From Methanocella paludicola SANAE (lineage in GTDB: Archaea > Halobacteriota > Methanocellia > Methanocellales > Methanocellaceae): DNA of 64,000 bases. Location: NCBI RefSeq assembly GCF_000011005.1, contig NC_013665.1:2147501-2211500 (forward strand), given 5' to 3'. Positions within the stretch are counted from its first letter, which is position 1. Each line of letters opens with the position of its first letter. The translations under genes were made by a program, and so were the position numbers. The notes under the pieces were generated by a model that worked only from the letters and a program-made list of their open reading frames with translations, was not told the origin of the DNA and ran no database searches. Shown here one piece after another: positions 2,718-49,602 of the stretch.

Positions 2718-3068
2718 AAAATAAGCATGCGTAGAAGATGCCCGTAAATAAACCCACCAATGGTTTATCTGCCGATCAAACGGCCCGAGGCCAATGAGCT
2801 CCCGGCTCAGTCGATGTGCGGCTTATTAATTACTACGCTCTTGCATTTTTGCTTTTTCAAATAGCAAAAATGAGCGGTGAACGTATCCATGTTGTTGATG
2901 ATGATCAGCTCATTGTTATGAGGTGCCAGAAATATATAAGTCAAAACTTTTCACTTCCTTTTTTATTGAACGCCCGATGCGGCGTCTTGAATGTCTTCTA
3001 CCCACACCATTCGGAATGGGTAACTGGAAAAATCCTGTGAGTATGTAACGGGATGGATACTGGCTATG
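2718..3068. other. Intergenic region with a 10-bp hairpin
   Basis: No gene is supported. Bases 2844-2853 pair perfectly with 2863-2872 (CATTTTTGCT and AGCAAAAATG, 9-base loop). It lies about 200 bases downstream of the aIF1A stop, and its role is unknown. The 74-codon plus-strand frame at 2816-3040 has no ribosome binding site and no recognisable content. Confidence 0.5.
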
Positions 3069-3407
3069 TCATATCGTATTCGAATCCAGGAATCCCTTTC
3101 TCTTGAGCCAGCCAGCCTGCGGCCCCGTGTATCTCCAGATCACGTCGGCCTTCTCGTCCTGGAACGACCAGGGCACCACTATGACGGTATCGCCTTCACG
3201 CACCCACGTCCTCTTTTTCATCTTGCCCTTGATACGGCACATCCTTGTCAGGTTATCCAGGCATAGTACGCTCAAGTGGTAAGCCCCGAGCATCTTCGTC
3301 ACGGTGCCTAAGATCTCTCCATCGGCTTTCCTGGGCGTTCTTACCCTGATGACCTCGCCGCCGGTATTTACCGGTTTTTTGCCACCCTTATTATGCGGTT
3401 TATACAA
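3069..3407 (-). CDS. eif1A: Translation initiation factor aIF1A
   Basis: The 112-residue protein is a full-length archaeal IF1A, a small-subunit A-site factor with an S1-like OB fold. Visible hallmarks are the basic N-terminal tail ([10 protein letters not shown]), the OB core [20 protein letters not shown] with [19 protein letters not shown], and the C-terminal [15 protein letters not shown]. The start codon is TTG at 3407 with GGTGA 7 bases upstream; no ATG is available in frame. It stands alone, with a palindromic TATA region upstream at 3438-3451. Confidence 0.95.
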
Positions 3408-3743
3408 TTTTTCACCTTCATAGTAATATGGTCATCATACTATATATAGTAAGTATAAATTTTAAATTATATTTATAAATTATACGAAATTATTTAAAAG
3501 TTGATAGAATATTGTATACGAAGATGCCGCTCTTCGTATATTCGTCTACGCTGGATTACTAAACATTATATAAATAAGCGTGTATGCTGTACTAATGATG
3601 ATGCCGGACAATGTAAAAATAGATAAACTGCCATTATAATCCAAAATTACCGTCTTTTCATGCCCTTGGTCGTCTATAATATGTGATTATACCACATACA
3701 ATTTTTATTTTCGGGCGTTTACCCCTACTTTGAGGGTGTTAGA
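3408..3743. promoter_or_regulatory. Divergent promoter region with palindromic TATA box and hairpin
   Basis: This is the A+T-rich spacer between aIF1A (minus) and a secreted protein (plus). TACTATATATAGTA at 3438-3451 is a perfect 14-base palindrome and the best TATA box for aIF1A. Bases 3515-3524 and 3531-3540 (TATACGAAGA and TCTTCGTATA) form a perfect 10-bp stem around a 6-base loop, a possible operator or transcript hairpin. GATTATACC near 3684-3692 may be the promoter of the secreted protein. Confidence 0.55.
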
Positions 3744-4466
3744 GTGAAAACCGGTTATTTTATTAAATCATCGATCGTCGTCGTCATGCTATGCGTTGCC
3801 GTAATAGTGGCAGGCGCGCAGTCGAATCCATTTGGCATGGGGATACCATCCTTCGACAGCCTGTCCAGCTATATGGAGTCTTTCTTAGGCGGCATCTCCG
3901 AGGATAGCATGAACCAGATGTCCGCATCGAGTTATGTCCATCCTGCGATGTCGATGGGCACTGGCATGTTCAATTTCACAATACCATCCATGACCATGCC
4001 GGGCGGCGGCTCGATAAGCGGCGTATCCCAGCAGGTCGACACGTCGGCGATGGGAACGCCTGCGTTTGACTTTTCCGCGTTCAACTCCACCACATTATTG
4101 CCGACGCTATTATCGAACTCCATAACCCAGACCAACTTCGGGTCGAAGCCCAGCGCCGTCAACAATTACACGCTTGCAAATAACGGCTCCACGATCAACA
4201 TGAACGTGAACGATACTATCTACGTCCAGCTGCCCTTCCAGATCCAGAATGGCAGCGTCTGGAACCTGACCACGACCAGCGGCCTGAATGTCACGAACCA
4301 GCGCACCACTACGCCCTCCATCAACCCGCTATCCGGAGGAGGCCTGGTTGACCTGACCGCCACACAGGAGTTCGCGATCAAGGCGGTAAAGCCCGGCACT
4401 CAGTACATTAACGCTATCTGCTCTGGCACCAACCAGACCTACTCGCTCACGGTTAACGTGAGTTGA
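3744..4466 (+). CDS. Secreted protein, possibly with a chagasin-like C-terminal domain
   Basis: The 240-residue product starts with GTG (GAGGGTG upstream) and has a clear Sec signal (hydrophobic stretch VVVMLCVAVIVAGAQS, residues about 11-27). Residues 28-135 are low in complexity and rich in Ser, Met, Phe, Asn and Gly. The last 90 residues form a beta-rich domain with NDTIYVQLPFQIQNGSVW and FAIKAVKPGTQYI, spaced like an I42 (chagasin-type) cysteine protease inhibitor. That similarity is weak because the diagnostic NPTTGY loop is not present. Many Asn-x-Ser/Thr sites suggest a glycosylated surface protein. Function unknown. Confidence 0.75.
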   Translation: MKTGYFIKSSIVVVMLCVAVIVAGAQSNPFGMGIPSFDSLSSYMESFLGGISEDSMNQMSASSYVHPAMSMGTGMFNFTIPSMTMPGGGSISGVSQQVDTSAMGTPAFDFSAFNSTTLLPTLLSNSITQTNFGSKPSAVNNYTLANNGSTINMNVNDTIYVQLPFQIQNGSVWNLTTTSGLNVTNQRTTTPSINPLSGGGLVDLTATQEFAIKAVKPGTQYINAICSGTNQTYSLTVNVS

Positions 4467-4584
4467 GTAGCCCCTTAAAAACGTCTTCTTTTCCCGGCTT
4501 AGATGTGACTTATGATAAATTTATATATCTGAACATGAAAAGTAGGAATGAGTTTACCGACTCTACCGTTTATAAGGTGCCTCC

Positions 4585-5610
4585 ATGTTAAACAATGCGA
4601 TCGCAACGCCGGCCCTCCAGCCATTCCAGGAACTCGAGCAGAGCGTCTGGAAGAAGGAGATGTGCGCCGGATGCCGGGGCTGTATCACCGTATGCCCGGC
4701 CAACACGTTAGCCTATGACCTGAAGCTGGCCAGGCCGTACCAGATCACTCCCTGTGTCGATTGTAAGGCCTGCCTGGACGCCTGTCCCAGGACTCCAGCT
4801 AACATGGATAAGCTGTCCCTGGACATTCTTGGGCCGCATCTTGACGTTTATAATGTGAAGGCTACTGCGGGCAATAAGCGCTACCAGAACGGCGGCGCCG
4901 TTACTGCGTTGCTGAAGACCGCGCTGGACGAAGGCCTTGTGGACCGTGTGATCGTCATGGGCGCGGACCGCTGGGCACAGAAGGCATACGCCCGGGTCGT
5001 CTCCGACTCATCGAGCCTGGACAGGGCTGCGGGCAGTATTTACATGAACAACGATGCCCTGGAGACAATGAAGGACATCATGAAGGACGACTCGATCAGG
5101 AACGTGGCGATCGTGGGAACGCCCTGCGCGATACAGTCGATAGGCCTGCTCCGGAAGTCCTCGAACGAGTACTCCGTAAAGCTGACCCAGAAGATCAGGT
5201 TCGCCATCGGCTTATTCTGCTTTGAGTCATTCGATGATCGGCTCATCCCCGAAGTTACCAAACGACTCGGCGTGCCGTCGTGGCGTATCGCGAAGATGAA
5301 CGCCGGCGAGGGCAGGCTGACCGTCACGCTGAGGAGTGGCGAGGTAAAGACGCTGCCCCTGTCGAGCCTGGCCGAGTTCGTCAAGCCCGGATGCCGCAAG
5401 TGCAACGACTTCACTTCAAAGCTCGCCGATATTTCCGTTGGAAGCGTGGGCAGTGCTGCCGGGTCCAGCGTCGTTATTACCAGGACGCCCGAGGGTGCCG
5501 GGCTACTCGAGATCGCCCGCGAGGTGGGCGCTATTGATGTGGCCGGCGGAGTCGATGTCGCTGCGATCGAGAAGGTCGGCAAGCTGAAGCTTAAGAAAAA
5601 TGGCTTTTAA
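4585..5610 (+). CDS. FrhB/FdhB-like F420-dependent iron-sulphur flavoprotein
   Basis: The 341-residue protein is of the coenzyme F420 hydrogenase/dehydrogenase beta-subunit family, which passes electrons between F420 and a partner through FAD and iron-sulphur clusters. It has two N-terminal ferredoxin-like motifs (CAGCRGCITVCP near residue 28 and CVDCKACLDACP near 58). The FrhB core follows, with NGGAVTALLKTAL, a GTPCAIQ loop and GLFCFESF, then a late Cys pair (GCRKCND). The start has AAGGTG upstream, and a TATA box (AATTTATATATC) lies at about 4517-4528. No hydrogenase or formate dehydrogenase subunits are adjacent, so the partner is unknown. Confidence 0.88.
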   Translation: MLNNAIATPALQPFQELEQSVWKKEMCAGCRGCITVCPANTLAYDLKLARPYQITPCVDCKACLDACPRTPANMDKLSLDILGPHLDVYNVKATAGNKRYQNGGAVTALLKTALDEGLVDRVIVMGADRWAQKAYARVVSDSSSLDRAAGSIYMNNDALETMKDIMKDDSIRNVAIVGTPCAIQSIGLLRKSSNEYSVKLTQKIRFAIGLFCFESFDDRLIPEVTKRLGVPSWRIAKMNAGEGRLTVTLRSGEVKTLPLSSLAEFVKPGCRKCNDFTSKLADISVGSVGSAAGSSVVITRTPEGAGLLEIAREVGAIDVAGGVDVAAIEKVGKLKLKKNGF

Positions 5611-37251: not shown

Positions 37252-37464
37252 TTAAATGTGCTCCGGACGCTCCGAGAGTTCTAGCTTGTGGTATGCAAAG
37301 AGCGCCTTGTCGATCTGCCTGAGCGAGTACTGGCCACATTGCTTTTGTATGTCCAGGATCGCCTTCCCAAATATGGAAAGCGCAAAGGCGATATTTAACG
37401 GTATAATAAAATGAACCAAGTGGTTTAAATAATTGAACCAATGATGGTTATATTGAGACATCAT
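37252..37464 (-). pseudogene. Short frame, probable C-terminal relic
   Basis: The 70-codon frame ends ILDIQKQCGQYSLRQIDKAL, FAYHKLELSERPEHI. The ending looks like the C-terminus of a larger archaeal protein, and a related ending is found at 36135. The N-terminal half is without recognisable content. It overlaps the start of the divergent MNT gene by 2 bases. It could be a small intact gene, but a relic is more likely. Confidence 0.4.
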
Positions 37465-38023
37465 GAACGATCAAGTTCCGATAATAACTTTAATTGATGC
37501 GATCATAGCAAAAAATAGTTTCAAGATACTTAATATATTTCTTTTTAAGCCGGATGTGCAAATACACCAAAATGAAGTCATTCGTATGTCGGGGCTATCG
37601 AAAAATACGGTCATGAAACTGCTCGATCTCTTTACCAGGGAGGGCTTGCTAAAAGAATCCAGGAAGGGGAACTTGAAGTTATTCTCACTGGTGGAAGGGC
37701 ACCCGGTCGTAAAACAATTAAAGATCCTGGTCAACGTATCGGAACTTAATGAAATACTTAAACGTTTTGCCGGTAAAGGCTTTGAGACCTATCTATTCGG
37801 TTCTGCGGCAAGGGGCGAAGATACCGAAAAGAGCGATATCGACCTTTTGATCATTGGTAAGATCTCAAACGATGATCTGGCGGACATTACGGCCGGGATC
37901 ACGAATGCTATAAACAGGGAAGTAAATCCGATCATAAAGACCCCGTATGAATATTCAACCCTCTACAAGACCGATAAGGCATTTTTTGTGAACCTTGAAA
38001 GGGATAGAATAAGATTGACGTAG
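37463..38023 (+). CDS. HTH-MNT nucleotidyltransferase antitoxin
   Basis: The 186-residue protein has an N-terminal winged helix (about residues 20-75, NEVIRMSGLSKNTVMKLLDL) and a minimal nucleotidyltransferase domain with LFGSAARGEDTEKSDIDLL, the complete GSxxxGxxxxxSDxD site. It is followed after 2 bases by a HEPN gene, the typical order of a MNT/HEPN toxin-antitoxin pair. There the MNT protein silences the HEPN RNase, in studied cases by adding AMP to it. The fused HTH would let it control its own operon. Confidence 0.85.
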   Translation: MNDQVPIITLIDAIIAKNSFKILNIFLFKPDVQIHQNEVIRMSGLSKNTVMKLLDLFTREGLLKESRKGNLKLFSLVEGHPVVKQLKILVNVSELNEILKRFAGKGFETYLFGSAARGEDTEKSDIDLLIIGKISNDDLADITAGITNAINREVNPIIKTPYEYSTLYKTDKAFFVNLERDRIRLT

Positions 38024-38025
38024 GC

Positions 38026-38454
38026 ATGCGTATCATGGTAAATGATTTTATTGATTGTCTCAGGTCAGGTATGATAAAGAGTTATTCTGCCTCGAAGGAG
38101 GAGATTATCAAGGAACTCGGCCAGTCGGATAACGACCTGGTAAGGGCAAAAGAAACCATCAAGGCCGGGGATCATAAATGGTCCACTATCCAGGCGTATT
38201 ATTCCATGTTCCACGCGGCGAGGGCGGTTTTGCTATCTACCGGCTACAGGGAGAAAAGCCATAAGTGCATGCTCTTTTTCCTTGAAAGTCTCGTCGACGA
38301 GGGGCGCCTGGAACCGCACTTTGCCAGGGAGTTCAGGTCGGCGATGTTCCTGCGGGAGGATGCGGATTATGAGGCCACGTACTCGGAGCAGAGTGCCCGC
38401 GACACTGTTGAGAACGCATCTTTGTTTATCGTAAGAATGAAAAATTTACTGTGA
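38026..38454 (+). CDS. HEPN domain toxin-like protein
   Basis: The 142-residue all-helical protein has HEPN features: a first helix with AYYSMFHAARAVLL and the motif GYREKSHKCM (R-x3-H variant of the RNase motif), then a long C-terminal helix. It follows the HTH-MNT gene by 2 bases and shares its transcript. The pair is a likely RNase toxin with a nucleotidyltransferase antitoxin, placed at the left end of the defence island. Confidence 0.83.
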   Translation: MRIMVNDFIDCLRSGMIKSYSASKEEIIKELGQSDNDLVRAKETIKAGDHKWSTIQAYYSMFHAARAVLLSTGYREKSHKCMLFFLESLVDEGRLEPHFAREFRSAMFLREDADYEATYSEQSARDTVENASLFIVRMKNLL

Positions 38455-38826: not shown

Positions 38827-39456
38827 GTGATCACTAACATTACCCCTTCCGGTGAACGGCTTTCCAACCCTGTCCTGGACAACATTTACAGTCGCCGCTC
38901 CGTGCGCAACTATTCCGATAAGGAAGTCCCCGATGAGGTCATCAAAGAGATCATCCGGGCGGGCACGTATGCCCCGACCGCCATGAACCAGCAGCCATGG
39001 CGGTTCGTGGTCGTGAAGAATAAGAAGCTCATCGAGGAGTACGACGAGAGGGCGAAGAAGCTGTTTGTCGAGGCGTTCAAGGATACGACGATACCGGCGA
39101 TGGCCGCCTATGTGAGGAATCTGTCGAAGCCCCAGACCCGGCTGTTCTATGGGGCGCCCGTCCTCATCCTGGTATTCGCTACCCCTGATGTCGTCAATTA
39201 TCATGACTGTGCCCTGGCGGCGGAGAATATGATGATAGCGGCCTATTCGTTAGGGATCGGCAGCTGCTGGATCGGGCTGGCGCTGCATCTCGGGTGGGAT
39301 GCGGAGTTTCTGAGGGGAGTAGGTGTTCCGGAGGGGCATAAGCTTGTCGCGCCACTTATATTCGGGTACCCGGTGAAGGGGGAGATCAAGGCGCCTGCGC
39401 GCAACGCTGACGTCATATTGAAATGGATAAGCCAGGAAAGCTATGAAAAATACTAA
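38827..39456 (+). CDS. Nitroreductase family protein
   Basis: The 209-residue FMN-dependent oxidoreductase has the family landmarks: YSRRSVRNYSDKEVPDEVI (FMN phosphate contacts), PTAMNQQPWRFVVV, ALAAENMMIAAYSLGIGSCW and the final FGYP. Substrates vary (nitro compounds, quinones, flavin), so none is assigned. The start is GTG. It is the only intact nitroreductase gene here; four decayed pieces of related genes lie downstream at 39962, 40959, 43636 and 44678, all in the same direction. Confidence 0.9.
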   Translation: MITNITPSGERLSNPVLDNIYSRRSVRNYSDKEVPDEVIKEIIRAGTYAPTAMNQQPWRFVVVKNKKLIEEYDERAKKLFVEAFKDTTIPAMAAYVRNLSKPQTRLFYGAPVLILVFATPDVVNYHDCALAAENMMIAAYSLGIGSCWIGLALHLGWDAEFLRGVGVPEGHKLVAPLIFGYPVKGEIKAPARNADVILKWISQESYEKY

Positions 39457-39922: not shown

Positions 39923-39961
39923 TTATTTTATATTATGTAAGTATGGACATCGATTTGTATC

Positions 39962-40011
39962 CTGGCTGCGGAGAACATGATGCTCGCGGCCCATTCGACG
40001 GATGTTGGAAG
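39962..40011 (+). pseudogene. Nitroreductase relic 1
   Basis: Reads LAAENMMLAAHSTDVGS, matching LAAENMMIAAYSLGIGS of the intact gene at 39214-39264. It shares 20 identical bases (GCGGAGAACATGATGCTCGC) with relic 3 at 43706. Nothing else of the gene remains. Confidence 0.8.
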
Positions 40012-40028
40012 TAGTAAATGCACGAGTT

Positions 40029-40738: not shown

Positions 40739-41245
40739 GCCCTATACCTGATTTGTTATATTAGTTTATATAACAAATTGCTATTTAATGCTTTTGGCAC
40801 TTTTTCTATGCCGTCTCGCATATCGGTTTCACCACGGAGCGCACAGAGCTTTTTCAAATGCCCTTCGGGATAGGTCGTCGTTGAGGTACGAGGATGCTGA
40901 GGCACAGAGGCGACCAATATGGCATTCTGGCGGTAAATGATATTTGGGTTTACGTGGGGTACGGCTGTTCTGTGTCGCGTCCGGCCTCATCCTGGTGTTC
41001 CCATGCAAGGCAGTCGTCGGGGAATACGAGTGGGACCTGGTGGCGGAGAACACGATGATCGCTGGTCATGAGTTGGGGATTGGGAGCTGCTGGATTGGGG
41101 TGGAGATGAGGGGCGGCGAGAATGAGGAGTCTCAGAAGGAGGCGAGGGTGCTGGAACATTATTTTTGAAAGGTTGTGCATGCGATAGTATCCGATATGCT
41201 CAAATCCCAACAGTTAAATAGGTCCTAAAATTTGAAGAAAATAGT
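40739..41245. other. Gap made of relics
   Basis: No intact gene. From left to right it holds a decayed LIR3-type piece (about 40831-40915, CCACGGAGCGCACAGAGCT and GTCGTCGTTGAGG) and nitroreductase relic 2 (40959-41111). Confidence 0.65.
40959..41111 (+). pseudogene. Nitroreductase relic 2
   Basis: Still open in frame: VRLFCVASGLILVFPCKAVV, then AENTMIAGHELGIGSCWIG, matching TRLFYGAPVLILVFATPDVV and AENMMIAAYSLGIGSCWIG of the intact gene. The conserved domain start and end are missing. CATGAGTTGGGGATTGGGAG (41067-41086) recurs exactly in relic 4. Confidence 0.82.
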
Positions 41246-41523: not shown

Positions 41524-42117
41524 CTATTTGGCTTTTTCCCGACTCTTATATAATTGTTTAGCGTATTGCCGTGTACGATGGCCGCTTCGGAACTTATCAC
41601 TATCTGGAGCAACATACCCTAACATGCGGAAATCTTCAGGCCTTGCGCCATATTTAAGCCAATCAATCGCTTTTTCGACTGGTTCATGAGGATTAACCCA
41701 GATGATTACTTTTAATTCTTCAGACATTGTGGACGCCCTTTTAAAGTGCCCTCGGGCTCGCTCATCAAGGGAAATAATGATATTATCCGTTACAAGGGCG
41801 GCTTCAACCAGGTGCATGTCTTTCATTATGACTACTAAGATGGTCGGATCCTTTTTAGCAGCGATTGACGATCGTATCTTATTACGAATATCGTCGTTTG
41901 TCTCGATGGCTTTCCGGAGTAGTCGGCCCTTATCGGCCATGGCCTTCATCCATGATACGGCAAAACGGCCTTTATGTCTTTTCCATTCATCCCATAATTG
42001 TTCTGACATAACGACATGGTATTTATGGGTGTAGACAGTATTTAGTACGTCTCGGCAGACCTTCGAATCGGAAGCGTGCCCTACGCAGGCATCGATCACA
42101 AGCTTTGTTGGCGGCAT
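41524..42117 (-). CDS. PIN-like nuclease-domain protein
   Basis: The 197-residue protein has PIN-type features: an N-terminal LVIDACVGHASD (first Asp), MSEQLWDEWKRH (Glu), and DMHLVEAALVTDNIIISLDE with Asp residues spaced as in PIN active sites, followed by a basic tail. PIN proteins are metal-dependent RNases. The ATG at 42117 is 1 base after the stop of the ATPase gene, so the two are made together. The pair looks like an ATPase sensor with an RNase effector. Confidence 0.75.
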   Translation of the reverse strand: MPPTKLVIDACVGHASDSKVCRDVLNTVYTHKYHVVMSEQLWDEWKRHKGRFAVSWMKAMADKGRLLRKAIETNDDIRNKIRSSIAAKKDPTILVVIMKDMHLVEAALVTDNIIISLDERARGHFKRASTMSEELKVIIWVNPHEPVEKAIDWLKYGARPEDFRMLGYVAPDSDKFRSGHRTRQYAKQLYKSREKAK

Positions 42118-42118
42118 T

Positions 42119-43534
42119 TTAATCCACCGGGTGTAGCTCGGAAGCATCCAGATATCGACTATCCGCCTCGAGCTCGATCTCTGCGAAGTCGATAGGGCAT
42201 TCGCCAAATGAGCCCCGTTTATCAAAACTCGTACTTATAACATCCGTTACACCATCATCGTTTCTCGAGAACCAATGCAATTTTACATTATCAGTCGTGA
42301 TTTTACCTTCGGCGATATATGTCTGGATACCAGTTAGAAGTAACATGCTATGGGTTTCTATGACAACTTTTACTCCACGGTTTGCGGTTTCAACCAACAT
42401 CTCGGCCAGCTTATACTGAGCCCGGGGATGGAGATGTATCTCCGGCTGCTCGATATAAACGATTTGGTCTCTTTTAGCCACAAGTAAAGCGACTAATACG
42501 GGAAGTACTTGCGATACGCCGAAGCCGACGTCGGCAATATTTACCATATCCTCGGGATCGCTCGTCTTTTTCGGCAGGCGATGCAGCAATATCTCGACTT
42601 GCGTATCGTTGATCTGCTTTGCGTCGATCTTCCATGTGAGACCTAAGGTCTTTAGCCAATTCCCAAGCTTGTTCAATGCAGGGTTGTTCGTAACTTTCCA
42701 GTGATTGATGATACTGGCAACGTAATTATCCAGGGTCCCGGGAAACTGAGGGCCGACTGCGGTCGTTTTATAAACTCTTTGCGGATTTCCACGTAGAGTG
42801 GGCACATGGATAATGCCAAGGATATGATTTTCAACCCGACTTAAGTCCTCGAAACCCGGGATAGGTAATACGGATGGAGAGATAATCGCCTTACCATACG
42901 CACCCGTAACACTAAAAACAACGTTTAGCATACACCTTTTTCGTAATATTTTTAATCCTATGTTCAAGTTATCGGTATCTATACCATTATCAGATAGGCG
43001 TTTATTATCGAGGATAAAGCTGTTCAGGCTTTTTCTAAAAGACTCATATTGATCATTGAAAAACCAATATTTTTTTATAAGGTCCTTTTCGTCCATGCCA
43101 GGTTTTAGCCTTACATTGCTCTTTTTACTGGTAAAAGAAGCCTCGACGAGCTCGACCGGCTTATTCTTTCCACGCTTAAATGTCTCTCGAATGGACTTTT
43201 CCCCGTCCACCTCAATCGTAATGGAGAATTTATCGGCAACTTCGTTGCCGATTTTGGATAAAAATTCCTTAGCAGAATAATACCGGACATGGGGCCCGTC
43301 GATCAGGAGGTCGCCGGGATCATACGATTCTTCCATGGTTTGTTTCATCATCAGGAGCGGCTGGAAGATGCTCGATTTGCCCGAGCTATTGGACCCGGAG
43401 AGAATTGTCAGAGGATATATGGATATTGATTTTTCATCGTAGATAGATTTGAAGCCGGCTACGGATATTTTGCTTATGCCTTTGACTTCATAGGAAGATG
43501 ATCTTTTATTTCTTGCTTCAGCTATAGAAACCAC
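42119..43534 (-). CDS. SMC/RecF-like AAA ATPase of a defence-type pair
   Basis: The 471-residue ATPase has an N-terminal ISVAGFKSIYD strand, Walker A (LSGSNSSGKSSIFQPLL), a signature-like region (DVGFGVSQVLPVLVALL), Walker B (IVYIEQPEIHLHPRAQYKLA) and a switch His (VVIETHSMLLL). This is the AAA_15/DUF3696 type found in Old-like and other phage-defence ATPases. The GTG at 43534 is preferred because a longer frame to 43642 would begin inside nitroreductase relic 3. The PIN-like gene follows after 1 base. Confidence 0.85.
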   Translation of the reverse strand: MVSIAEARNKRSSSYEVKGISKISVAGFKSIYDEKSISIYPLTILSGSNSSGKSSIFQPLLMMKQTMEESYDPGDLLIDGPHVRYYSAKEFLSKIGNEVADKFSITIEVDGEKSIRETFKRGKNKPVELVEASFTSKKSNVRLKPGMDEKDLIKKYWFFNDQYESFRKSLNSFILDNKRLSDNGIDTDNLNIGLKILRKRCMLNVVFSVTGAYGKAIISPSVLPIPGFEDLSRVENHILGIIHVPTLRGNPQRVYKTTAVGPQFPGTLDNYVASIINHWKVTNNPALNKLGNWLKTLGLTWKIDAKQINDTQVEILLHRLPKKTSDPEDMVNIADVGFGVSQVLPVLVALLVAKRDQIVYIEQPEIHLHPRAQYKLAEMLVETANRGVKVVIETHSMLLLTGIQTYIAEGKITTDNVKLHWFSRNDDGVTDVISTSFDKRGSFGECPIDFAEIELEADSRYLDASELHPVD

Positions 43535-43635
43535 CCCATAATCGTATGTTGTATAATCGATTACTATAATGTAACTTTCGCTTATATTACCGATGATATT
43601 GGTATCAAGCAGATGTCCATTAAGTGCAACGACAT

Positions 43636-43777
43636 GGAGCACCAGTGCTCATCCAGGTGTTCGCCGTGCCAGGGGATCGTTGAGGAATATGATTGTGCCC
43701 TGGCGGCGGAGAACATGATGCTCGCAGCCCATTCATTATAGGTCGATAGACGCTGGATAGAACTTGCGAAGCATTTG
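43636..43777 (+). pseudogene. Nitroreductase relic 3
   Basis: GAPVLIQVFAVPGD in one frame corresponds to GAPVLILVFATPD of the intact gene. After a frameshift, CALAAENMMLAAHSL, stop, VDRRWIELAKHL continues the match to CALAAENMMIAAYSLGIGSC and WIGLALHL. It lies directly upstream of the ATPase gene. Confidence 0.83.
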
Positions 43778-44677: not shown

Positions 44678-44733
44678 GCCTTGTCGGCGAAGAACATGAT
44701 GTTAGTTGCTCATGAGTTGGGGATTGGGAGTAT
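44678..44733 (+). pseudogene. Nitroreductase relic 4
   Basis: Reads ALSAKNMMLVAHELGIGS, matching ALAAENMMIAAYSLGIGS. It shares CATGAGTTGGGGATTGGGAG exactly with relic 2 (here 44711-44730). Only this core segment remains. Confidence 0.78.
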
Positions 44734-44849: not shown

Positions 44850-45320
44850 ATGAATCAAAACAGTGAAATTGAGGAATTAAAAGATATTGGATTTATAGAA
44901 ATTGGTAGCTGGGAATTAAATAATGATGGTTATGGTATTCATATTGAGAAGGCAAACGATTACCACAGTCTAACAAAAAATAGGGGAATTTATTCTTTTG
45001 TTGTAGAGAAAAATGATACTTCTATTTCTTATAAAATTAAATATTTTGGAACATCTGAAGTTCACGATGGTAATATACATTATAGACTGTCAAAATATCA
45101 TACCTCAAATAAAAGTCCAAAATGTAAGAAAGAAAAAATAATTGAAAGGTTAAAAGCAGGAGATAAGGTAAAAATATTTGTATTTGCCCCTAGCGATGAA
45201 TTACAAAACAATTTTCAATATAAAACATTGAATGTTGATTTAGTCAGGGGTTTAGAATACAGCCTAATTGATAAGTTTAAAACTTCTAAGAAAATTAATG
45301 GGTGGAATAAACGATATTAG
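44850..45320 (+). CDS. GIY-YIG-like protein next to a DNA methyltransferase
   Basis: The 156-residue protein is A+T-rich in coding. It has GIYSFVVEK, then IKYFGTSEVHDGNIHYRLSK (a GIY...Y-x-G with a following Arg), a central helix, GLEYSLIDKFKTS (Glu) and the closing NGWNKR. This order (GIY, YIG-like, R, E, N) is that of GIY-YIG endonucleases, though YIG is YFG. It converges on the methyltransferase gene with a 1-base gap and may be a second nuclease of the restriction locus. The ATG lies directly after a TATA-like CGATTATATA, so other starts are possible. Confidence 0.6.
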   Translation: MNQNSEIEELKDIGFIEIGSWELNNDGYGIHIEKANDYHSLTKNRGIYSFVVEKNDTSISYKIKYFGTSEVHDGNIHYRLSKYHTSNKSPKCKKEKIIERLKAGDKVKIFVFAPSDELQNNFQYKTLNVDLVRGLEYSLIDKFKTSKKINGWNKRY

Positions 45321-45321
45321 G

Positions 45322-46239
45322 TTATTCAAGCCCTTTTAATATAGTTTGTTTTAATGAATCTCTGTATTTCTTAATTCTTTTTTCTGCAACTGCAATATAA
45401 TCTTTATCGATGTCATATCCTACGAAATGACGGTTTACTTGTAATGCTGCGATGGCTGTTGTTCCACTGCCCATAAATGGATCTAAAATTATATCATCTT
45501 CGAATGTATATAGCTTGATGCACCGTAGTGGTAATTCAATCGGATATGGAGCCGGATGGCCGATCTTTGTTGCTGATTCTGATTTGAATGACCATATGCT
45601 CTTAGTATATTCTAGGAATTCTTCTTTGGTAATTGATGATTTTTTATTACAATCGTTATTTCTTGAGAATGATTGTTTAGAGAATATCATAATGTATTCG
45701 TGTACATCTCGAAGCGTTGGATTTGAGGCCGATTGGAAGCTACCCCATGCTGTTGATCCACCTGCACTCGATGCTTTATTCCATATTATTTCCCCACGCA
45801 TTAAAAACCCAATATCGAGCATATCCTTGATGATAAAAGAATGCAAAGGCAAGTAAGGTTTTCTTCCTAGATTCGCTACATTTAGACATACTCTCCCACC
45901 AGGAACTAAAACCCTATAAACATCTCTCCATACGTTTGCTAAAAAATCCAGGTATTCTTTAAGTGATAGGTTCTCATCATACTCTTTTCCCACATTGTAT
46001 GGTGGTGATGTAACCATTAGATGAACGCTATTATCCGGTAATTCCTCCATGTGTTCACTAGATTTACAAAAAATTTTATCTAAATTATTACTTGGAATAG
46101 CATATTCAGTAAAATCAATGGTTTTATCTATTTTATAATCGCTATATAACCGGCTATTATAGAATATTGATGAATCATGATTTTCTCTTCCGGACGATCC
46201 AAAAGAACTTGTTTTTGTGCCACCGGTTTTTGATTTCAT
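45322..46239 (-). CDS. DNA methyltransferase (N4-cytosine/N6-adenine, beta-type order)
   Basis: The 305-residue enzyme has the catalytic motif IV (VTSPPYNVG) before the SAM-binding motif I (DPFMGSGTTAIAAL), the beta-class order, and NRHFVGYDIDKDYI after it. SPPY is more usual for N4-cytosine enzymes, but N6-adenine cannot be excluded. The target-recognition part lies between about residues 150 and 240. GGTGGAT precedes the ATG, and the endonuclease gene ends 3 bases upstream, so the two form a restriction-modification operon. Confidence 0.9.
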   Translation of the reverse strand: MKSKTGGTKTSSFGSSGRENHDSSIFYNSRLYSDYKIDKTIDFTEYAIPSNNLDKIFCKSSEHMEELPDNSVHLMVTSPPYNVGKEYDENLSLKEYLDFLANVWRDVYRVLVPGGRVCLNVANLGRKPYLPLHSFIIKDMLDIGFLMRGEIIWNKASSAGGSTAWGSFQSASNPTLRDVHEYIMIFSKQSFSRNNDCNKKSSITKEEFLEYTKSIWSFKSESATKIGHPAPYPIELPLRCIKLYTFEDDIILDPFMGSGTTAIAALQVNRHFVGYDIDKDYIAVAEKRIKKYRDSLKQTILKGLE

Positions 46240-46242
46240 TGC

Positions 46243-47139
46243 CTATCCACCATTAATTAATTGTAGGAATCTTTCAGCCTTTAGTCTATAAGTAATTTCG
46301 CTATCAGCAAGTTCTATCATTCTACCTAGGTCTTCTTTTGACTTCCATCCTGCAAAGAAAGTGCTATTATTATTCAATAGAGCAGCAATATTATTTCTGA
46401 GTTCTGTGATTGAACTAATTGTCTTAAATCCAAATCCATCTGTATTGTGAATATAATTACCATTGTCAAGCGGATGTGGATTTAATGACCAAAATCCTTG
46501 GATAATACCATAACTTTTTAAGTTATCAACTTTGGTTTTATAACTTTCTTGTATTGGGGTATTTCCTAGGATAATTATAGGTATAATAGATGCTCTTCCA
46601 CTTGCAGTTCTTATACCAACACTTTTGCCTATCGCTTTTAACATGGTATCTGATCTCAATAATCCAGGTGTCCCTATATGTGAATTATAATCACCTAAAC
46701 ACTGTAATTGGTACGTTGTGCCATTTTGCATGCATTGCCAATTCCATACAATTGACATCTTTACTTCAAATATGGCAATAATATTTTCTGGCCTTTGTCT
46801 AGTATTTGAATTTCTACATATGGCTACATCGGCTGGAGAATCATTTGATAACCCAACTTCATCACATATTACATTATTAACAGCATAAAATCCAAGTTCC
46901 CTGGCAATAGGTTCAATTAAGTCTTTTGACCATTTTTCAGTATATTCACCAATACGACCATTACGGCTCTGAAGTGTAGTTTTAGTTCCCCGATAATTTT
47001 TCGGCCAATAGGCAAGATATCTGCCATCATTTGTAAGATAGAATAATTTTCCTTTCGGTGCGACACTCAATGAGGTATTAAAAAAATTAACTTCATCTTC
47101 TTTTGCCCATACGCCATCGGTAATAGTCATTTTACCCAT
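46243..47139 (-). CDS. PD-(D/E)XK restriction endonuclease-like protein
   Basis: The 298-residue protein has a nuclease core with SPADVAIC (Asp) and, after about 22 residues, IIAIFEVKMS (E-x-K), the PD-(D/E)XK signature. An N-terminal segment has WSKDLIEPIARELGF. Its position immediately before the methyltransferase on the same strand supports a Type II-like cutter; the site is unknown. ATG 47130 (MTITDG) is an alternative start. G+C is low, like the rest of the right half of the island. Confidence 0.82.
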   Translation of the reverse strand: MGKMTITDGVWAKEDEVNFFNTSLSVAPKGKLFYLTNDGRYLAYWPKNYRGTKTTLQSRNGRIGEYTEKWSKDLIEPIARELGFYAVNNVICDEVGLSNDSPADVAICRNSNTRQRPENIIAIFEVKMSIVWNWQCMQNGTTYQLQCLGDYNSHIGTPGLLRSDTMLKAIGKSVGIRTASGRASIIPIIILGNTPIQESYKTKVDNLKSYGIIQGFWSLNPHPLDNGNYIHNTDGFGFKTISSITELRNNIAALLNNNSTFFAGWKSKEDLGRMIELADSEITYRLKAERFLQLINGG

Positions 47140-47203: not shown

Positions 47204-49228
47204 CTAATCTGCAGATATCGCTGCAGAATTACGAGATAATTCTACTGCTTGTTCAGCAGTTTTTAATTCAGCTACTAATTTACTTTTTTCGATTTCTAGC
47301 CTATCATTTAAAAATTTAAACCTTAGATCGCACTCATTTAGTACATCGCTCCATTTTTTAACATAAATTTTTACATTATCTACTTTGTAAACAAGGCCCG
47401 GTTCTCCAAGTTTTTCGTTATTTGTTAGTTCATCTTCAATAAAATGTGAGGTATTATATTTATTACCCACTAATATATACTCCCATTTATAATTATCAGC
47501 ATTAAATCTGTCAATCTCACGGATAATGCGCATATAATCCCTGACTTGATACAGCTGATTTCTCCCAAGTCTTATATTTGGATGCTTTAACTCCACAATA
47601 ATATTTTTTACATGTCCATTATTTTTTTCTTGTCTGCATATAAAAATATCAACTTGTTTCAACTTATCTGGATGGTCTAATGGTACTCCCTCATAATCCT
47701 CTTGATCTTTTTCTGTAAGTATGTGAATGTGTTCTTTTAACGCTTTTTCAAAATTATCTTCTGCAGCGGCAACTAAATTATATTGTTCACCAAAAATCCA
47801 ATAATGATTTTGTACTATTTCTTGGAGATGATTTACCTCATCAGCGTATAAATCATGGTTAAATACAACCTGACTTAAAAGCTCTAAAGCTTGTAACCGA
47901 TCTTTTATTAGTTTAATAGTTTTTACAATATTTGATAGAGAAGCATGTTGTAGAATCTCTTTTAATTGTGTTCGCTCTTTCGAATCCAGCTTTACTACTT
48001 CATCTATGATATCAAGAATTTCATCACGCTCATCAGAAATTAATAACACATTTAATAAACCAATAAATGTCTTTTTTTGTTCATATTTTAAATTTTTAAA
48101 AATTTTCGGTTCAGTTACATAAACCTCTTTTACTATAGCTTCTAAGTGTTCAATTTGGAGCAATTCAAAATCAGATTTGTTAGATTTATCGATTATATCC
48201 TTATCTAACGATGTAACAAAACTTTCGGCTTGCTCGATAATTAAGGGTTTTCTTTGTCTTCTTAAATATTTTGATAATTCATTCTGTAATAGTTTAAACT
48301 CTTCGTCTGCTATTGAATGTACACCTAATGACTTTTGATGTATATCACCATTATCAAAATTAAAATTTAAGAAGTAATCACTTGATATAAACACACTGTG
48401 ATAAAAATTATCTCCTTTATTATTAAACTTAGTATTTTCTTTATAAATCTCATTGCCGTTATTATCTAAATAATAAAACTTCGAATATTCTAAATTAAGT
48501 TGATAATTCCATCGTATGTATTGTATATTAAATACAGTAGAAGACAACTCATGTTTGATTTCAAATTGTTGCTTATCAACTAATATATCTGAATAATTTA
48601 AACCTTCGCCATTAATAACTAGCCGATATTTAGATTTATTTAATTCTAAGAACCAGCAGAATTCCTTTTTAAGATAATTAAGCATCAATTTTTCAGCTTC
48701 TCTTGCATTTTTAAAAATCGAAAATCTGTTAAAGTCGGAAAAGGTAATAGTTGTACCTGTATGATCGATAGTTACTATCGGTTTATTCTCAGCAGAATAA
48801 GTATCTAATTTATGTGATGTTATTTCTATATCATATTTATAATTTATATTATTATCATTATATGTAGTAGACCAATTTGCTTTATTAGCAAAAGTAAAAA
48901 ATGTTAACCTACCAACACCACGAAACCCATGTATTTTCGAGTTGGTTCTTAATATCTCTTCTTCTCTTAATTTTTCCGAGTCATAAAAGGGCCTAAACTT
49001 ATTTTCTAATTCATTATAATTAATACCAGTACCATTATCCGATATAATTAATTTTTTTAGACTTCCACCTGAACTAAATTCGTACTCTATTTTGATATGA
49101 GTCGCTTTTGCATCAAACCCATTCCAAACGTATTCGGAAATAGCTTTAAAAAAGCGTTTATCATTATATTTTAATTTAGTTAACGCAGATTTAATACCTT
49201 TTGTAGTTATTTTAACTTCACTTACCGT
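47204..49228 (-). CDS. GHKL ATPase fused to a Shedu/PD-(D/E)XK-like nuclease domain, apparent ACG start
   Basis: The frame is open from 49249 to the stop at 47204. Residues 1-110 hold a complete Hsp90-type GHKL site: FFKAISEYVWNGFDAKA (E...N...D-A), ISDNGTGIN (G1) and HGFRGVGRLTFF (G2). The middle is helical. The last third has HYWIFGEQYNLV, LKQVDIFIC and NIIVELKHPNIRLG, the D...E-x-K pattern of DUF4263/Shedu-like nucleases. No ATG, GTG or TTG exists before 48688, which would remove the whole ATPase. ACG at 49228 lies 6 bases after GAGGT and is one transition from ATG. It ends 64 bases before the endonuclease gene on the same strand. Confidence 0.75.
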   Translation of the reverse strand, partial: TVSEVKITTKGIKSALTKLKYNDKRFFKAISEYVWNGFDAKATHIKIEYEFSSGGSLKKLIISDNGTGINYNELENKFRPFYDSEKLREEEILRTNSKIHGFRGVGRLTFFTFANKANWSTTYNDNNINYKYDIEITSHKLDTYSAENKPIVTIDHTGTTITFSDFNRFSIFKNAREAEKLMLNYLKKEFCWFLELNKSKYRLVINGEGLNYSDILVDKQQFEIKHELSSTVFNIQYIRWNYQLNLEYSKFYYLDNNGNEIYKENTKFNNKGDNFYHSVFISSDYFLNFNFDNGDIHQKSLGVHSIADEEFKLLQNELSKYLRRQRKPLIIEQAESFVTSLDKDIIDKSNKSDFELLQIEHLEAIVKEVYVTEPKIFKNLKYEQKKTFIGLLNVLLISDERDEILDIIDEVVKLDSKERTQLKEILQHASLSNIVKTIKLIKDRLQALELLSQVVFNHDLYADEVNHLQEIVQNHYWIFGEQYNLVAAAEDNFEKALKEHIHILTEKDQEDYEGVPLDHPDKLKQVDIFICRQEKNNGHVKNIIVELKHPNIRLGRNQLYQVRDYMRIIREIDRFNADNYKWEYILVGNKYNTSHFIEDELTNNEKLGEPGLVYKVDNVKIYVKKWSDVLNECDLRFKFLNDRLEIEKSKLVAELKTAEQAVELSRNSAAISAD

Positions 49229-49602
49229 ATTAATACCTCGCGCAAGCGCTTAATCATTAATTAATAAATTATTGTTTACTTATTAATCAAATACTAATCT
49301 ATAAAGATTACTAACATGCATTCAGAAAGTATTAGCAAATAATTGAACAAGTAATTCTATATTACGTTGGTATTTTTTAAAATTTAAAAAATAATAAGCC
49401 ATAACAAATGATAGGATATTGAATACCTATAAGTGTATATGAGGACTATTAGGTTGTAAATACCTAGTCAGCCCGTACAATTAATCTAATTTACTAATAA
49501 ACTCATATTTTATTTCTAATAACCCACCCACGCCTTTCTCCCTGCGTAACATATTTATACTAACATTCCATTTATAGCACCCAACCAACGTAAGTGTACA
49601 GT
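49229..49602. other. A+T-rich boundary between island and ribosomal cluster
   Basis: No gene or clear repeat is seen. A TATA box (ATATTTATACT, about 49551-49561) lies 42-52 bases before the methyltransferase start and probably opens the ribosomal supercluster. Base composition changes abruptly here, from A+T-rich on the left to G+C-rich on the right. Confidence 0.5.

Follow-up and report, generated by a model that had tools for sequence, protein, structure and literature searches.

The window, a stretch of 64,000 nucleotides from the genome of Methanocella paludicola SANAE, carries on its minus strand a gene for a GHKL-ATPase joined to a Shedu-type nuclease (47204–49228; 674 aa when read from an ACG codon, TAG stop included). 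In the single-contig genome it occupies chromosomal positions 2194707–2196728. The gene lies in a frame that runs without interruption from 49249 to 47204 and is limited by TAA (49252–49250) and TAG (47206–47204). Frame and motifs agree with the first-pass annotation, which had described one open frame joining a complete ATPase site to a nuclease module. It had also described the ATPase region as free of ATG, GTG and TTG, and the first of these codons in frame after the upstream stop is indeed TTG 48688 (codon 181). Gene callers restricted to the three standard codons would cut off the ATPase half of the protein. A run of 180 codons without internal start codons is unremarkable by itself, since the relatives average 4.3 over this length and one of 69 also has none; a depletion of start codons as a special feature of the ATPase region was rejected as lying within the relatives' range.

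The ATPase domain (residues 26–141; 48806–49153, minus strand) affiliates with HATPase_c_3 (Pfam PF13589, 2.7e-19, 70 bits against a cut-off of 25). Its motifs E32..N36..D39A40, D64NGTG and H100GFRGVGR107 comprise the asparagine, DxGxG and GxxGxGR that characterize the GHKL ATPase superfamily within an HATPase_c domain. HATPase_c_3 was detected in all 57 relatives, in which N36, D64, G66, G68, G104, G106 and R107 are identical throughout and E32 in 56. A full-length AlphaFold2 model, calculated with an alignment of 57 sequences, had a mean pLDDT of 85.5, and its ATPase part resembled Hsp90 and MutL (Foldseek, E about 1e-10). Fold and motifs are shared with these two ATPases, whereas their C-terminal domains and role differ from those of the M. 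paludicola protein.

The C-terminal domain (residues ~455–674; 47207–47866, minus strand) was assigned to the Shedu/DUF4263-type PD-(D/E)xK nucleases from hhalign and the AlphaFold2 model. Its motif residues are E464, E481, D527 and E546-L-K548; of these, E464, E481, D527, E546 and K548 do not vary among the 57 relatives. The sole Pfam match of the C-terminal part was a sub-threshold one to HSDR_N_2 (0.0018). Neither PF14082 nor any PADLOC model matched the M. paludicola protein, while two of the 57 relatives reached PF14082 (best E 7.4e-4) and 16 weakly matched PADLOC SduA. A direct search of the nuclease profile against solved structures returned nothing significant. The last 255 residues were modelled alone with AlphaFold2 at a pLDDT of 92. 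The nearest solved structures among the best 50 Foldseek matches included MspJI, EcoO109I, HamA (Hachiman), Cap4, McrC and FokI, all of them PD-(D/E)xK nucleases from restriction or defence systems, although each match is individually weak (all E above 0.001); no Shedu structure was among these 50. The comparison set for homology consisted of bona fide SduA_C proteins from eight archaeal genomes of the same phylum. Against their alignment, the nuclease profile matched over 157 columns with 96.2% probability (hhalign, E 2.7e-9), while ten shuffled and one reversed control stayed at or below 0.5%. On the strength of this difference the nuclease is Shedu-type by homology, though under the Pfam cut-off. 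The core shared with Shedu SduA (PF14082/DUF4263) includes the patterns 'Q..(I/L)E.H.WIFG..Y', VD, (E)xK and Q..Y; the N-terminal sensor regions of other SduA proteins differ from the GHKL domain found here. The proposal of the first-pass annotation, a Shedu-like nuclease fused to a GHKL ATPase, to be checked by structure prediction and profile search, is thereby supported by Pfam, the models and hhalign: the predictions of both domains led to Hsp90/MutL and to PD-(D/E)xK nucleases, and the expected profiles were recovered for HATPase and, through SduA_C, for the nuclease, but not for PF14082 itself. Current PF14082 and PADLOC models therefore miss the branch to which the M. paludicola protein belongs.

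A protein of this build had been put forward as a plausible undescribed defence effector, a claim that does not stand. Iyer, Abhiman and Aravind (2008) described paraMORC3 as a GHKL and S5 region followed by a C-terminal E-D-ExK nuclease, patchily distributed in bacteria and archaea and partly standalone (PMC2292703). By its published architecture, paraMORC3 shares with the M. paludicola protein the GHKL and S5 parts, the C-terminal RE-fold nuclease with E-D-ExK, the patchy bacterial and archaeal spread and a standalone subset. E481, D527 and E546-x-K548 are present in 57 of 57 relatives together with RE-fold matches (Foldseek E above 0.001). Unlike paraMORC3, the subclade of the M. paludicola protein has no conserved restriction-modification (R-M) partner that we could find. 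More recently, VcSduA from V. cholerae, a GHKL and DUF4263 protein, was reported in 2025 to protect against phages as a single gene; protection is lost with either of the substitutions E27A and K557A, and the protein was assigned to Shedu type I-D, with a connection drawn to paraMORC3 (PMC12137116). Compared by its published description, VcSduA likewise combines N-terminal GHKL motifs I–IV and a C-terminal DUF4263-type PD-(D/E)xK domain in one gene, and its catalytic residues E27 and K557 would correspond to E32 and K548, with similar spacing. In contrast to VcSduA, the M. paludicola protein, whose function is predicted, has an archaeal host, a divergent nuclease below the PF14082 threshold and ACG in place of ATG. 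Since the architecture has been known from paraMORC3 and VcSduA, the M. paludicola gene represents a new archaeal member, with which the experimentally validated GHKL-Shedu defence architecture now also covers a methanogen and a small clade of archaea.

Scanning genome contigs yielded 171 relatives in bacteria and archaea, and a tblastn search of plasmids yielded 41 records, mostly annotated as 'ATP-binding protein', of which 13 covered at least 80% of the query. Relatives that aligned end to end were 32–53% identical to the M. paludicola protein. Five further archaeal relatives (L094–L098; 47–53% identical, L098 being a fragment at a contig end) were found in 394 genomes of the phylum, and in the phylogenetic tree the M. 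paludicola protein fell within an archaeal clade with a support of 0.999. A distant relative occurs in two Pasteurella phage records; in one of them (L124; OR544131.1, Pasteurella phage Pmp14) it lies at 2932–4890 amid tail genes, a position which suggests that phages carry this defence family.

The start of the gene is its most unusual trait. An ACG (49226–49228, minus strand) occupies the position of the orthologous start codon, and ATG is aligned exactly with it in all six nearest archaeal relatives (L094–L098 and the Woesearchaeal L011), likewise in several bacterial relatives. Among relatives with an intact 5' end, none is without a standard start near this position. Six nucleotides before the ACG lies a Shine-Dalgarno-like GAGGT (49235–49239, minus strand), complementary to the anti-Shine-Dalgarno at the 3' end of the 16S of this genome (GGATCACCTCCT, two occurrences). 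The first-pass annotation had noticed both the well-placed GAGGT and that ACG is one transition away from ATG, had taken the gene to be either switched off at its start or begun at a rare codon, and had proposed a comparison with related strains. The spacing and the 16S 3' end confirm the site, and the aligned ATG of the archaeal orthologues strongly supports this reading of the start codon; no second genome of the genus was found among the relatives' genomes, so the comparison extends to relatives and not to strains. Together, the aligned ATG and the standard starts of all relatives with intact 5' ends argue for a change from ATG to ACG at the true start, for which a T-to-C transition in the original codon would be the simplest account. 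The same annotation had named an upstream frameshift as a possible refutation. A frameshift that would join ATG 49257 to the frame was rejected, since the relatives start where the ACG stands and lack an N-terminal extension. ATG 49257 itself opens an 11-codon minus-strand frame (49222–49257, TAA at 49224–49222) that overlaps the ACG in another frame and may have arisen by chance or be an upstream ORF. Signs of decay, such as faster evolution or loss of conserved residues, were also rejected: the protein keeps 60 of 63 conserved positions, the seventh lowest among the 57, and its root-to-tip length of 1.005 compares with 1.05–1.29 in sister sequences. With its catalytic residues intact and its evolution not accelerated, the gene would thus, judged from its sequence, be silenced, attenuated or recently mutated. 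With the start signal changed from ATG to ACG, synthesis of the protein in M. paludicola SANAE is probably poor or absent.

Among the accounts of this start, we give an even chance to a recent pseudogene, in which the change to ACG ended expression and the remainder has not yet decayed. The conserved start is lost without a nearby alternative, as the only other start codon of NCBI table 11, ATT 49234, touches the Shine-Dalgarno site without spacing; on the other hand, 674 codons contain no further lesion, and the relatives included no second genome of the genus that would allow strains to be compared. Distinctly less probable is that ACG is a functional start codon, weak by design, that limits the amount of a nuclease potentially harmful to its own cell. 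The good Shine-Dalgarno site with its spacing, the retention of all catalytic residues, the absence of stops and frameshifts and the unextended branch would fit such a start, but a recent lesion would equally leave the frame intact, every archaeal sister has ATG, and a review of archaeal initiation names AUG, GUG and UUG only (PMC7531240). A literature search for archaeal ACG starts returned nothing useful and no precedent. Because ATG is retained in the sisters and the search brought up no archaeal precedent, we judge a recent null allele likelier than a weak ACG start. That ACG initiation has become fixed as a regulatory device restraining the defence nuclease is, in our estimation, improbable; if true, such use of an ACG initiator would be unusual for an archaeon.

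An error of sequencing or assembly, with ATG in the real chromosome, would be one base away from the expected codon and the assembly is the single one published; it is nevertheless quite unlikely, as the genome was sequenced at 10x by dye-terminator chemistry with finishing assessed (PMC3146512) and lone substitutions are seldom seen as errors in data of this kind. Still more remote is translation from TTG 48688, the earliest standard start codon in frame, to a 494-aa protein lacking the ATPase site: this codon lies past the ATPase domain inside a predicted helix (175–196) and is used by no relative. The start-codon change is the specific news of this locus and the one feature deserving a bench test, for it offers a clean test case both for archaeal ACG initiation and for the frequency of start-codon silencing among defence genes.

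Directly downstream, as the first-pass annotation had it, and on the same strand, the GHKL gene is adjoined by an R-M pair. Its second gene (45322–46239, minus strand) encodes an N6/N4 DNA methyltransferase (PF01555, N6_N4_Mtase, 9.5e-50; PADLOC MTase_II, 1.4e-140). The first (46243–47139, minus strand, 298 aa) had no Pfam or PADLOC match and is regarded as a putative type II restriction endonuclease from its pairing with the methyltransferase. Relatives of this presumed endonuclease, 53–59% identical, stand directly before the same methyltransferase in two other archaea that lack the GHKL gene, so that the family (46243–47139, L113 and L114) is found just 5' of this methyltransferase in all three archaea examined. 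The GHKL protein might be a subunit of the adjoining system and not a standalone effector, as the genes share a strand at a distance of 64 bp and Iyer et al. placed many MORC-like GHKLs in R-M operons. We consider this very unlikely: the endonuclease and methyltransferase genes travel alone as a pair in the two other archaea, which argues for an independent module, VcSduA functions alone (PMC12137116), and the other GHKL loci are not flanked by relatives of either gene, apart from two weak matches to methyltransferase motifs. The conserved linkage to the same endonuclease and methyltransferase that marks a type II R-M accessory is not seen, and the functional link suggested by the adjacency consequently finds no support.

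The surroundings of the relatives vary, from a type I R-M system (L099; recognised by reading translations) to an LlaMI-type R-M system with drt2 (L005), and some relatives have nothing recognisable nearby. No recurring partner emerged when the nearest neighbours (107 proteins) were compared with distal ones (66) using PADLOC; any family reached at most two of the 107.

Taken as a whole, we consider it highly probable that the gene is a horizontally acquired archaeal member of the GHKL-Shedu proteins (paraMORC3; Shedu type I-D), an ATP-gated single-gene antiviral DNase whose start codon changed from ATG to ACG and whose translation is most likely very weak or absent; the horizontal acquisition is part of this best explanation. 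In such a protein, binding of ATP would cause the N-terminal GHKL domains to dimerise, and the S5-like and helical middle part may act as a clamp by which invading DNA is sensed or held. The pairing of the GHKL heads would then close this clamp over the DNA and license the C-terminal PD-(D/E)xK domains to cut. This clamp mechanism, the antiviral role of the M. paludicola copy and its low expression are inferred, and the requirement for both the ATPase glutamate and the nuclease lysine was shown for VcSduA only (PMC12137116).

Shared gene order with another family member starts at an RNA methyltransferase gene (49594) and runs through the ribosomal operon. To the left of this gene, everything between positions ~37 and 49.5 kb of the window is non-syntenic, and over the last 5 kb of this stretch the G+C content drops to 25–37%. 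A pair of MNT nucleotidyltransferase and HEPN genes (37463–38454) is likely a toxin-antitoxin system. At 41524–43642, a gene for an OLD-like AAA ATPase (PADLOC NsnB, 2.5e-59) overlaps a gene that weakly matches PIN, possibly a two-gene defence system. An AT-rich frame of 156 aa (44850–45320) adjoins the methyltransferase and had no match in Pfam, PADLOC or NCBIfam. An intact nitroreductase gene is located at 38827–39456, and four degenerate nitroreductase fragments lie near 39956–40012, 40962–41139, 43634–43777 and 44678–44731, between successive modules, as if the island had grown by repeated insertions or duplications there.
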